Positions 18,340-23,039 of a DNA stretch of 46,886 bases are shown piece by piece. The DNA comes from an uncultured Verrucomicrobiota bacterium (GTDB taxonomy: Bacteria > Verrucomicrobiota > Verrucomicrobiia > Verrucomicrobiales > Akkermansiaceae). How positions within the stretch are numbered: position 1 is the first letter of the stretch; each line of letters opens with the position of its first letter. A program made the translations under genes and the position numbers. The notes below the pieces were generated by a model. It was given only the letters and a program-made list of their open reading frames with translations. It ran no database searches and had not been told where the DNA came from. The stretch spans positions 1 to 46,886 of the forward strand of contig CAJXYV010000004.1 of assembly GCA_913063525.1 (NCBI GenBank). The letters are read 5' to 3'.

Positions 18340-20367
18340 TCACAAACCAACCGGGTAGGTTTCGGGGGCCTCATCCACGCTCCAGACCGAAGTCTTTTCC
18401 AGCGGTTCCACAGCTCGGGTTTGGTCGAAATGCAACACCGCGTCGAACTGTTTGGCAAGGCGCGCCTCAAAGTAGTGGCTGCGGCGCTCGGTTTCAGGCA
18501 GATAGACCACCCCGATCGCACGCTCCAAGCGGGCGTCTTTAAGCGCCTCGACGGCGGGGGTGTCTTGAGTCAAGTCGAGCCAGAAGTTCGGAATGCCGAC
18601 TTGATGGAATAGGTGCTCGTAGCTGCCTTCCAGTGCGGGGCGGACGTCCTTCCGCTCGGCGGGCAGGTGCCATCCGCCGGCCGCGGTTACGGTGCCCGCG
18701 TAGGTCGTAAAGCCGATGAGTTTGCACTGCTCGGGGAAAGCCGCGCGGCACAGCTGGCCGATGTTGAGTTCGCCGCGTTGCCCCATTTGCGTGGCACGGG
18801 CATCTCCGAGATGCGAGTTGTGCGCCCACACCACCACTTTGGCGGTTCCTTGTTGGGATTGTTGATGGGCGACGAGTTCCACGAGCGTTTCCGTCATGTG
18901 CTCGTCGCGCAGATTCCAGCACGAGACGTCGGAGCGGAACATCTTGCGGTAGTATTCCTCAGCATTTTTGACGAGGCGTGCGTTCTGTTCGGCAAAGAAA
19001 AACTCATCGGCTGCGGCCGCACCGTTACGGGCTAGATACTCGACCTCCTTGGCGCGCAAGTCGGTCAACTGCTGGATGACTTCCGACCGGCAACCATCGC
19101 CGACGCCAGAACCGACCATTAACCCGTAATTCTGCGGATCCTTGCCGTAGCGGGCCATGCAGCCGTAGAGGGCTCTCGCCTTTGCGGCTTCCTCGGGATC
19201 GCGCTTTTCGAGGTAAGAGATCACCTCGTCCATCGACTTGTGAAGGCTATAGAGGTCCAGACCGTAGAATCCGACCTGGTGTTCTAACGAATAAACGTGG
19301 TCGTTGTGGTCGCGCAGCCAGCCGACAAAGTCGAGCACATCGGCATTGCGCCACATCCAGGCGGGAAAACGATCAAATCCAGCGAGTGCCTCGACGCTGT
19401 CGATATCGTTGGAAGCGCCGCGCACGTAGCGATTGATTCGGTAGGCATCCGGCCAATCCGCTTCCGCAGCCACGACATTGAAGCCCTTTTCCACGATCAG
19501 GCGTTTGGTGATCTCTGCCCGCTGGCGGTAAAACTCATGGGTCCCGTGGGATGCCTCGCCAAGGAGGACAACGCTGGAATCCCCGATCATCTCCAGCAAC
19601 CCGTCGTAGTCCTCGTCCGCACCAGTCAGCGGCTGGGCGAATTCGCGAACCCGGTGAAGTACACTCTTGCCTGTCAGAGGCGGTGCCGCTTTGGCCATCG
19701 CCTTTTCTGGATATGAAACCTCAATCAAGGCGCGGACTTCCTCGTCCGTCGTCTGGGAGAAATCCTGATACCATTTGCCGACGGAGACAAACAACTCCGG
19801 CTCCAGCACGGTCAGCACTTCATCAGCCTCCTCGCGCAGGCGGGCAACGGTTTCAGCGGGAGCAACGGGAACCGCGACAATAATCCGCTTGGCCTGTTGA
19901 TGGCGCAATAACTCAATCGCGGCCGACATCGTCGAGCCAGTGGCGATGCCATCGTCCACCACGATCACTGTCCTGCCGCTGACTGCGGGAACGGGACGTT
20001 TGCCGCGGTAAATCTTCTCGCGCCTCTCGAGCTCTAGCGTCTCCTTTTCGATGATCATGTCGACCTGGGCACGGCTCAGGCGCAACATCGAAATCATGTC
20101 GTCGCTCAGCACCCGGACCCCGCCGCTGGCGATGGCACCCATCGCCACTTCCTCGTGCCCGGGCACCCCGAGTTTGCGAACAATCAGCACGTCAAAGGGC
20201 CGATCCAGGGATTTGGCGATCTCTGCGGCGACGGGCACGCCGCCGCGCGGTAGGGCGAGAATCGTCAAATCCTTCACGCCTGAAAATCTCGTCAGCAACT
20301 CCGCCAACTGGCGTCCGGCGTCCTGGCGATTTGCAAATGTATGAAGCGTAGCATTCATGGCTTTCAA
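18340..20367 (-). CDS. Fusion of a phosphoribosyltransferase domain and an erythromycin esterase domain
   Basis: A 675-residue cytoplasmic fusion. Residues 10-220 form a type I phosphoribosyltransferase fold with ALPRGGVPVA (38-47) and the PRPP loop VVDDGIATGSTM (136-147). Residues 235-675 match the erythromycin esterase family: LLGEASHGTHEFYRQR (268-283), AEADWPDAYRINRYV (300-314) and a later VVWAHNSHLGD. In resistance enzymes this fold opens macrolactone rings through a catalytic His and Glu; here the fusion to a PRTase and the downstream hydrolase suggest a metabolic or detoxifying role rather than drug resistance. Its first four bases overlap the end of the upstream hydrolase gene (20364-20367), so the two are co-translated. 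The substrate is unknown. This fusion is known in other environmental bacteria. Confidence 0.85.
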   Translation of the reverse strand: MKAMNATLHTFANRQDAGRQLAELLTRFSGVKDLTILALPRGGVPVAAEIAKSLDRPFDVLIVRKLGVPGHEEVAMGAIASGGVRVLSDDMISMLRLSRAQVDMIIEKETLELERREKIYRGKRPVPAVSGRTVIVVDDGIATGSTMSAAIELLRHQQAKRIIVAVPVAPAETVARLREEADEVLTVLEPELFVSVGKWYQDFSQTTDEEVRALIEVSYPEKAMAKAAPPLTGKSVLHRVREFAQPLTGADEDYDGLLEMIGDSSVVLLGEASHGTHEFYRQRAEITKRLIVEKGFNVVAAEADWPDAYRINRYVRGASNDIDSVEALAGFDRFPAWMWRNADVLDFVGWLRDHNDHVYSLEHQVGFYGLDLYSLHKSMDEVISYLEKRDPEEAAKARALYGCMARYGKDPQNYGLMVGSGVGDGCRSEVIQQLTDLRAKEVEYLARNGAAAADEFFFAEQNARLVKNAEEYYRKMFRSDVSCWNLRDEHMTETLVELVAHQQSQQGTAKVVVWAHNSHLGDARATQMGQRGELNIGQLCRAAFPEQCKLIGFTTYAGTVTAAGGWHLPAERKDVRPALEGSYEHLFHQVGIPNFWLDLTQDTPAVEALKDARLERAIGVVYLPETERRSHYFEARLAKQFDAVLHFDQTRAVEPLEKTSVWSVDEAPETYPVGL

Positions 20368-21047
20368 TTTCCTTCCTGTTTGGTGTGGGTTAAGTGGCTT
20401 TCAAACCAATTGGCAGCGAGCTCGGCGACTTCTTCCAAGGCCCCCGGTTCCGCGAACAAGTGGGTCGCATCGGCGATCAGCGAGAGATGCTTTTCGCCGC
20501 GCAGAAGTTCGAGCGATTCCTCGTTCCAATCGATGACAGCGTCGTCCAAGGCCCCCACGATTAAAAGCGTAGCAGCCCTGACCTGTTCGATCGCGTCGCC
20601 CGCCAAGTCCGTTCGCCCGCCTCGCGAAACGACGGCTTGCACCTCCGGAATCTTGGCAGCAGCGACGAGTGCCGCAGCGGCCCCCGTGCTTGCGCCGAAG
20701 AAGCCGATCCCCAGGTTCTTCACGCTTTCCTGCTGCTGGGCCCAGCGGGTCACTGCGACCAACCGCTCCGTCAGCATCGGGATATTGAAGCGCAGCTCGC
20801 CGGTGTGGGCTTCGGCGATGGCCTCGCGCGGGGTGAGCAGGTCAAACAGCAGAGTCGCTAGTTTTTTACGGTGCAATTCATTCGCAACTAGACGGTTGCG
20901 CGGGCTCAACCGACTGCTGCCGCTGCCGTGGGCAAAGATGACCAAGCCGGTGGCACCTACGGGGATGGACAGATCGCCGCGGAGCACGGCACCCGGACAT
21001 GGGATTTCGACCTCGTGTTCCTGGAGGGTGGATAAAAACGCATTCAT
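20364..21047 (-). CDS. Alpha/beta hydrolase, dienelactone hydrolase-like
   Basis: A 227-residue cytoplasmic alpha/beta hydrolase without a signal peptide. FAHGSGSSRLSPRN (38-51) is the oxyanion loop, GFFGASTGAAAAL (115-127) is the nucleophile elbow with Ser120, GALDDAV (165-171) supplies the acid and DATHLF (193-198) the catalytic His196. Proteins of this type are often encoded beside a phosphoribosyltransferase, and here the stop overlaps the start of a PRTase/erythromycin-esterase fusion by four bases. The pair probably acts on one ester- or lactone-containing substrate, which is an inference. It is the first gene of this two-gene unit. Confidence 0.82.
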   Translation of the reverse strand: MNAFLSTLQEHEVEIPCPGAVLRGDLSIPVGATGLVIFAHGSGSSRLSPRNRLVANELHRKKLATLLFDLLTPREAIAEAHTGELRFNIPMLTERLVAVTRWAQQQESVKNLGIGFFGASTGAAAALVAAAKIPEVQAVVSRGGRTDLAGDAIEQVRAATLLIVGALDDAVIDWNEESLELLRGEKHLSLIADATHLFAEPGALEEVAELAANWFESHLTHTKQEGN

Positions 21048-21256: not shown

Positions 21257-21637
21257 ATGCGGTTTTACATCTTCTTCAGCGGAGCGACGATTGTGGCGAT
21301 GGGAGTGGCGGCGATGTCGGTGCTGGATCGTTCGCAGGCGATTGGCTTCCTGCAGGGCGCGCTGACCTTGGGCGGCGGCATTTTGATCTGTGGCATGTTC
21401 TCCATCAAAATGAAATGGCACGGTATCATCGGCGCGGGAATTCTAGCGCTGCTGGGTGCGGCGCGCGGCGTGGGGAATGTGCCTGACATGGCAAAGTTCA
21501 TCGTCGGCGAACGCCCGCGCGGCTCGGCCCCCGTGATGGAAATGGGCGTCACGCTGATCTGCCTGCTGCTCCTGGTGAAAATTATTCGGGCGCTTTCACA
21601 GGAGCGGCTGCGTCGGATGCTGGAGTCTCAGGACTAG
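21257..21637 (+). CDS. Small multi-pass membrane protein of unknown function
   Basis: I do not recognise this 126-residue protein. I chose ATG 21257 because it gives [16 protein letters not shown], the start of a first membrane helix; the frame is open further upstream without coding character. Four hydrophobic segments are visible: about residues 4-20, 30-48, 52-65 and 92-110, followed by a basic tail ([16 protein letters not shown]). Its last 56 bases overlap the 3' end of the convergent GH75-like gene. No domain, metal site or lipobox is visible. It could be a gene shared within the phylum, but I have no functional handle. Confidence 0.6.
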
Positions 21638-23039
21638 GAGCGGAGGCTGGAGTTTCGGCGAGGACTGGAGGAGCCACCGGTTTCGCCAGCAAGTCTTGCC
21701 ACGCGTGAAGCTCGTAACCCGCGCCGAGACCGCCGATTTCGCCCAGTAGCTCGCGGCAGCGCTGGCTCCACTTTGCGTAATCGGGTGCGGTGCGCTCGGG
21801 CTCGCGGCTGCCGGGGAAAATCAGATAGCTGACTTTCAGATCCGAAACGGGGCGACTGTAGGAAGAAGCCTTCGCATTGAGCTCGTGCGCCAGACGCAGC
21901 GAGCCTTCACCGACCTTGAAGCTCGGCCCGCCATCGCCGACAATCGCCGGATAGAGCTGGTTGGCGTAGGCGACGACCGCATAATCCCCCGCCTTGGGTG
22001 CAAAAGCATCGCTCGACGCCAAGATATTCACCGGAATGACAATGAACGGATCGTAGTCGGCGATGAGGAAACTGCGGTTCTTCAGGTCGTCGACGCCGCG
22101 CTTGAGGTACTGGATGCGATCCTTCAGCCAAGTCTTGCGAACGGCAGTCGTCGCGCTGGCGTTCAGTTCCTGCTGGGCGGCGGCGATCCTGCGCTCCCAG
22201 CCGACCGTGATCGGGTTGGGCGTGGGGGTCTTTTTGGGCCAAGCGTAGCTGGTGAACGGCTGGTAGTTTGGCGAATCGACGATCTCCGCAGGCATCGTCG
22301 CCAGACGGTCGCCATCCGAGCCGTCGGAAACCACGTCCATGTCCGCTTGCAGGAAAAATACCTTGCGGCCGCTGGCAGATTGGAAATTGAGCATCGTCTG
22401 GCAGTCATAAACGTTGTGTTTGGTCAGTAGTTCGTTGAGGGAGTTTGCATCGCGCCGGACGCGCACGGCCTTGTTTTCGTAGAGTTTGCCGAACCAGTTC
22501 GATACCTCGGCTTTTTCGACCAGCGCGGGCAGGCCCGGCAGCATTTTTGCCAGCTCAGGACTGGAGCTTTCCAGATCCGCCATCGTTTTCGCCGCCGTCG
22601 GAATGCGGACCGAAAGCTGATAGGTTGCGGTGTAACTCGCGTCATCCACCCGTTCGCGCGAGGCGATGCCGCCCATTTCCGTCTTCACCTCAGTCTTAAA
22701 GGGAATGCCCGAGCGCAATTTCCGCACATCAGTGACGGTTCCCAGCTCTGGTGGGCGCACTTCGGCCAGGCGCGCAGACTTCTCGGCCTCTTCCAGGGAT
22801 TTTTTCAACGCCGCGATGTCGCGCTCGTACTTCGCTTCCATTTCCGTGCGGATCTGCGTCTCGGCATGGCGGTAAATGTCGTTGCGTTCCGCCGCAAGAC
22901 TTTTGGGATCAGGCGCTGATGACGACAGCCGTTTCCCCACCACCGCCAGCCCGACCGCCACCACCAGCAAGGGAAGCACCGCCACGCGCCAAGGAAATTT
23001 CCGAGTTCGGCGGTTTCTGGGGGTTCTTTGCACGCTCAT
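21582..23039 (-). CDS. Membrane-anchored protein with a GH75 (chitosanase-like) domain
   Basis: A 485-residue protein with one N-terminal membrane helix (about residues 17-36), a charged coiled-coil stretch (48-95), a middle domain, and a GH75-type region. The latter shows [16 protein letters not shown] (229-244) and YQPFTSYAW, then [10 protein letters not shown] (330-339), AGDYAVVAY (350-358) and [17 protein letters not shown] (364-380), which follow the family pattern of an Asp in a DMDxxxDG context and a VGDxGP...GEGS loop. Fungal GH75 enzymes hydrolyse chitosan; here the anchor and the long N-terminal extension suggest action at the cell envelope, perhaps on amino-sugar polymer. The tail (about 450-485) is Pro/Ala-rich. 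Family assignment is moderate; the activity is inferred. Confidence 0.7.

Follow-up and report, generated by a model that had tools for sequence, protein, structure and literature searches.

In Mycobacterium tuberculosis, Rv2030c has been described as a protein that combines a phosphoribosyltransferase (PRTase) domain with a member of the erythromycin esterase superfamily; it lies in the gene order Rv2030c-Rv2029c-Rv2028c and was proposed, on annotation alone, to serve erythromycin tolerance (PMC4410610). Its deletion caused no phenotype in growth, hypoxia, NO, peroxide, acid, macrophages or mice (PMC3110807). A review treats Rv2030c as uncharacterised and, within the dormancy (DosR) regulon, lists Rv0571c as a putative phosphoribosyltransferase (PMC5309233). 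On the esterase side, the roles of residues E47, H50, E78 and H289 are described for EreC (PMC7979712). The Bacillus cereus proteins BcR136 and BcR135 act as esterases on p-nitrophenyl butyrate, and macrolide esterase activity is absent from BcR136 (PMC6109786).

We analysed a stretch of 46,886 nucleotides (the window) from an uncultured bacterium of the Akkermansiaceae (Verrucomicrobiota), which carries a fusion of the Rv2030c type: an N-terminal PRTase domain and a C-terminal erythromycin-esterase-like (Ere-like) domain in one protein of about 670–690 aa. We likened it to Rv2030c in architecture and synteny through the published description and through a Mycolicibacterium relative (locus L080), which has the same arrangement and is 52% identical to the window protein, with PfkB and Usp genes next downstream, as in the order Rv2030c-Rv2029c-Rv2028c, and then a LuxR-type response regulator. 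Rv2030c is DosR-controlled and co-transcribed with hspX (Rv2028c-Rv2031c operon), whereas the window copy has a serine hydrolase gene upstream and lacks the hypoxia/stress-operon setting of hspX, pfkB and usp, of which pfkB and usp are present in Mycolicibacterium. This setting characterises the M. tuberculosis gene, not the architecture. The unit in the window is unexceptional: it belongs to a widespread, already known fusion family, which by architecture and synteny covers a strongly induced tuberculosis dormancy gene; the original prediction had missed both this earlier description and the usual stress/dormancy context. The new part is a recurrent three-enzyme module and its triple fusion. 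A limited literature search found no paper that joins erythromycin esterase, phosphoribosyltransferase and dienelactone hydrolase.

Gene layout and start of the fusion gene

The open reading frame list gave two consecutive genes on the minus strand, for a 227-aa hydrolase and then the fusion protein (Table 1). They had been predicted to overlap by four bases. The operon-like pair held up; the overlap requires a TTG start at 20367, and an ATG nine bases downstream leaves a 5-bp gap instead. Akkermansiaceae relatives that carry the fusion have a conserved ATG start (MNAT..., MKT in one), and the in-frame TTG at the hydrolase stop occurs among them only in the window and its closest relative, L083. 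The ATG at 20358–20356 is therefore the likelier start. From the sequence, the likelier layout is the hydrolase stop, a 5-bp gap and the fusion ATG, with AGGAAGGAAA as a better-placed ribosome-binding site. The two genes form one operon-like unit, in which the four-base overlap is probably not real. The window flanks contain GH2, tail-specific protease and dnaX genes, which are not obvious stress genes. A 485-aa protein without a Pfam match is encoded near the unit (window 21582–23039, minus strand). A paralogue search of the same genome returned a weak PRPP-loop match as its sole second match.

Table 1. Positions in the window of the two genes and their domains, motifs and catalytic codons.
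Feature	Position	Strand	Basis
Serine hydrolase gene, 227 aa, first of the unit	20364..21047	-	ORF; PF01738; PDB 2o2g
Codon of catalytic Ser120 (GASTG)	20688..20690	-	alignment; sequence
Codon of presumed catalytic Asp168	20544..20546	-	alignment
Codon of catalytic His196	20460..20462	-	alignment; sequence
PRTase-erythromycin-esterase-like fusion gene	18340..20367	-	ORF; Pfam; 675 aa from TTG, 672 aa from ATG
Likely true ATG start of the fusion	20356..20358	-	conserved ATG in Akkermansiaceae relatives; 5 bp past hydrolase stop
PRTase domain (PF00156, residues 26-188)	19804..20292	-	Pfam; closest solved structure 1wd5/TT1426
PRPP-binding loop VIVVDDGIATGST	19930..19968	-	DDG-ATG residues invariant in 66 fusions
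Flexible inter-domain linker, pLDDT below 50	19678..19704	-	AF2 model
Ere-like domain, residues 235-675 (PF05139 core 291-650)	18343..19665	-	Pfam; Foldseek 2qgm TMt 0.85, EreC 6xcq TMt 0.70
GEASH motif, Glu271 to His274 codons (= EreC E47, H50)	19546..19557	-	invariant in 66 fusions; EreC alignment
Codon of Glu302 (= EreC E78)	19462..19464	-	66-fusion alignment; EreC alignment
Codon of His519 (= EreC H289)	18811..18813	-	66-fusion alignment; EreC alignment

Catalytic sites of the three domains

The joining of a PRPP-loop PRTase to an Ere-type esterase in one protein, as predicted, was borne out by Pfam, which matched PF00156 (Pribosyltran) at 1.2e-19 and PF05139 (Erythro_esteras) at 2.7e-134 (449 bits against a gathering score of 26.4). 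Foldseek with the PRTase domain returned 1wd5 and many other PRTases; the closest solved relative is Thermus TT1426 (PDB 1WD5; 1e-38, TMt 0.80), a stand-alone protein, in contrast to the fused domain of the window. The fold and a PRPP loop VVDDGIATGS with two acidic residues identify a type I phosphoribosyltransferase. An alignment of 66 full-length fusions showed that the DDG-ATG residues of this loop are invariant and that the RGG and the RK-LGVPG loop, typical of catalytic PRTases, are conserved. The loop is intact, and the domain is predicted to catalyse phosphoribosyl transfer.

Some PRTase folds are regulators. The PRTase part could accordingly be a ligand-binding sensor of the PurR or GfcR type, which would gate the hydrolases in response to PRPP or a nucleotide instead of transferring a phosphoribosyl group. 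GfcR was among the weak NCBIfam matches, 5vog, a PRTase-fold protein solved with ppGpp, was a weak structural match, and the two domains are connected by a flexible linker. A PRPP loop by itself would be compatible with a sensor, but the conservation of the catalytic-type loop together with the RGG and RK-LGVPG loop in the 66 fusions, the absence of a DNA-binding domain and the persistence of split PRTase genes beside Ere genes make a sensor rather unlikely. The AlphaFold2 model of the fusion protein had a mean pLDDT of 87 and a pTM of 0.65, with the linker poorly predicted; given this pTM, the relative orientation of the PRTase and Ere-like domains is uncertain.

The Ere-like domain belongs to the erythromycin esterase superfamily by its Pfam score and its conserved Glu/His/Glu/His site, the positions matching EreC E47, H50, E78 and H289 being invariant in the 66 fusions. 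Its nearest solved structures are 2qgm, 3b55 and EreC. The closest fold is that of BcR136/BcR135 (PDB 2QGM, 3B55; TMt 0.81–0.85 by Foldseek), which are about 20% identical to the Ere domain, have no PRTase part and are named for succinoglycan biosynthesis. The macrolide esterases EreC/EreB (PDB 6XCQ) share the family and the four catalytic residues with the window domain, which is only 16% identical to them (TMt 0.70) and falls far under the curated resistance-enzyme cutoffs.

These comparisons bear on whether the protein is a macrolide-resistance esterase fused by happenstance to a PRTase, as the PF05139 match, the conserved catalytic equivalents and the annotation-based erythromycin-tolerance proposal for Rv2030c (PMC4410610) might suggest. 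The NCBIfam scores were 47 for EreB against a cutoff of 750 and 24 for EreD against 800, so that the domain lies outside the EreA–D resistance enzymes as curated; the closest fold, BcR136, lacks macrolide esterase activity (PMC6109786); and the link with the PRTase and the serine hydrolase in stress regions is conserved. A macrolide-resistance esterase of this kind is very improbable; macrolides are an unlikely substrate, and resistance an unlikely role. The original prediction had warned that the drug-resistance label may mislead, and the scores and the BcR136/BcR135 fold agree with that warning; in genomes of this kind, a protein annotated as 'erythromycin esterase family protein' should not be taken for a drug-resistance enzyme.

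The partner gene proved to encode a serine hydrolase, again as predicted. The 227-aa protein has an alpha/beta hydrolase fold (PF01738 DLH, 4.1e-5), and its closest solved relative is the dienelactone hydrolase 2O2G (2.5e-62). It has the nucleophile elbow with Asp and His expected of a dienelactone hydrolase-like protein; the GxSxG Ser120, Asp168 and His196 are retained in 98–100% of 56 aligned hydrolase homologues. The window enzyme has Ser where the classical dienelactone hydrolase has Cys. All tested known catalytic residues are therefore intact in the PRTase, the Ere-like domain and the hydrolase, and the three encoded enzymes are probably active and cytosolic.

Recurrence of the fusion and of the three enzymes

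Scanning genome contigs yielded at least 575 relatives, and the taxonomic description is drawn from the best 80 of them. Among these 80, the phyla with full-length fusions included Verrucomicrobiota, Acidobacteriota, Actinomycetota, Pseudomonadota and Myxococcota, and those with split forms included Gemmatimonadota. Because full-length homologues are found in many phyla and the hydrolase repeatedly adjoins them, the domain arrangement is not a chance one. Within Verrucomicrobiota the distribution is patchy: 31 of 289 genomes had at least one match to either the PRTase or the Ere part at E 1e-20. The window's genus contains both the fused form and a distant split form, which fits horizontal transfer. 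On the Ere tree, the fused/split state changed between three times (the number forced by well-supported branches) and eight times.

The genome survey proposed with the original prediction, for co-occurrence of the three domains and their neighbours, recovered a recurrent triad. Of 90 Ere-domain loci, 46 had a same-strand hydrolase gene no more than 1.5 kb away, on either side of the fusion or as one of three separate genes, and about half of the loci had no adjacent hydrolase. PRTase adjacency (88 of the 90) is biased by the query, whereas hydrolase adjacency is free of that bias. The triad took the form of separate adjacent genes in several orders (overlapping genes in Novosphingobium), of PRTase=Ere and PRTase=hydrolase fusions, and of PRTase=hydrolase=Ere fusions. 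Intact proteins of the last type were found in Rhizobium leguminosarum (865 aa), Rhizobium sp. NLR16a (881 aa), R. lentis (882 aa) and Salipiger (883 aa). In Rhodococcus opacus (L061), a PRTase=hydrolase fusion lies a few genes away from the organism's own PRTase=Ere fusion; it resembles Rv0571c, which we take to be a PRTase plus dienelactone-hydrolase protein without an Ere domain. In Verrucomicrobiota, all nine hydrolase-positive genomes had the PRTase, against 21 of about 290 overall (P 8e-12, without phylogenetic correction). The three domains also co-diverged (rho 0.46–0.66), partly mirroring species phylogeny. The functional tie suggested by the original prediction is thus supported by adjacency in several orders, by the double and triple fusions and by co-occurrence in Verrucomicrobiota. 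The triple fusions narrow the question, as three activities in one protein should share a pathway.

Two individual loci were unusual. In Rhizobium johnstonii, the triple fusion extends over two overlapping frames (L119:2426-5126) and looks frameshifted, with intact copies on other Rhizobium plasmids. In Actinoallomurus, a second, very divergent Ere-type gene directly follows the fusion gene (L032:2239-5800).

Stress-gene neighbours, other fusion partners and candidate functions

The nearest non-triad neighbours were led by Usp, CBS, DUF2267, SPW and DUF5335, and also included YflT and Rv2632c-like genes. The Rhodococcus plasmid copy lies among Usp, Hsp20 and cold-shock genes, and the Komagataeibacter copy beside CBS and baeRF-type genes. 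Genes five or more away in these loci were likewise rich in Hsp20 and Usp; these are therefore stress regions as a whole, and the stress linkage may be regional. The genes might then be mere passengers of stress regions that travel together with no common pathway, and the loci without a hydrolase, about half, would fit this too. Without functional coupling, however, it would be difficult to account for the four intact triple fusions, the several gene orders and the repeated fusion or fission, and we consider passengers highly unlikely.

On balance, and with some reserve, we favour the view that the three enzymes form one module on a shared small-molecule pathway under stress or dormancy, which would couple hydrolysis to PRPP chemistry. 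The two hydrolases would hydrolyse an ester or lactone carried by a ring compound, and the PRTase would attach ribose-5-phosphate, taken from PRPP, to the compound so released, or would catalyse the reverse reaction; the ring compound would thereby be salvaged or made harmless, and the fusion would aid channelling of the intermediate. The originally suggested pairing of a phosphoribosyl substrate with an ester or lactone is plausible as candidate chemistry. The intact PRPP loop, Ere-like Glu/His water-activating site and hydrolase Ser-Asp-His triad speak for such a module, as do the fold matches, the recurrent adjacency and fusion, the co-occurrence and co-divergence of the domains and the stress-gene neighbours; the missing phenotype of the Rv2030c deletion, the loci without an adjacent hydrolase, the regional spread of stress genes, the window flanks and the weakness of the regulator-site evidence speak against it.

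The same Ere subfamily also occurs in other settings. Fusions of it to protein-L-isoaspartate methyltransferase (PCMT) occur on Sinorhizobium meliloti pSymB (L121:7290-9311) and in Azospirillum lipoferum (L122:5293-7308), with PF01135 matches of 2e-59 and 1.1e-61, respectively. In Deinococcus ficus pDFI2 (L124:1416-7353), genes for cyanophycin synthetase, isoaspartyl peptidase and cyanophycinase immediately precede the Ere gene. In Methylocella tundrae (L123:5360-7278), the Ere gene lies 11 bp downstream of a gene whose product combines S30AE (HPF/RaiA) and cold-shock domains.

The PCMT fusions and the D. ficus setting argue against macrolides and hint at repair or turnover in resting cells. 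Here the Ere-like domain would be a general ester, lactone or imide repair hydrolase, and the PRTase, PCMT and serine hydrolase its exchangeable front ends. The Ere genes next to the cyanophycinase and isoaspartyl peptidase genes and to the HPF/RaiA-family gene are consistent with this, and so are the catalytic motifs, all of which are common to the Ere domains in PCMT-fused and other settings. A repair hydrolase leaves the PRTase as the commonest partner unexplained, though, and the species with a verified PCMT fusion number just two; we judge it improbable. We are equally doubtful of a three-enzyme stress-survival module in which the Ere-like hydrolase and exchangeable partners would rid resting cells of a class of damage to esters, lactones or imides, or of a toxic metabolite formed there.

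Two further origins were discarded. PADLOC gave only weak PRPP-loop matches (9.6e-5 and 0.0045), arguing against an anti-phage defence system; the PHROGs matches were likewise weak and partial, and a match to a phage record was not found, arguing against a phage origin.

Upstream of 39 actinobacterial loci, no DosR box with up to four mismatches was found; less strict DosR patterns occurred overall about as often as by chance, with a perfect GGGAC-N4-GTCCC in the Mycolicibacterium locus. One count put FNR/FixK-like boxes at 3 of the 11 proteobacterial loci (0.23 expected) and another at 4–5 (0.8–1.9 expected), which is no more than suggestive. A cyclopropane-fatty-acid-synthase-like gene recurs near the unit, downstream of the fusion in two Akkermansiaceae loci (L006 and L007) and in R. 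leguminosarum (L115:2310-3338).
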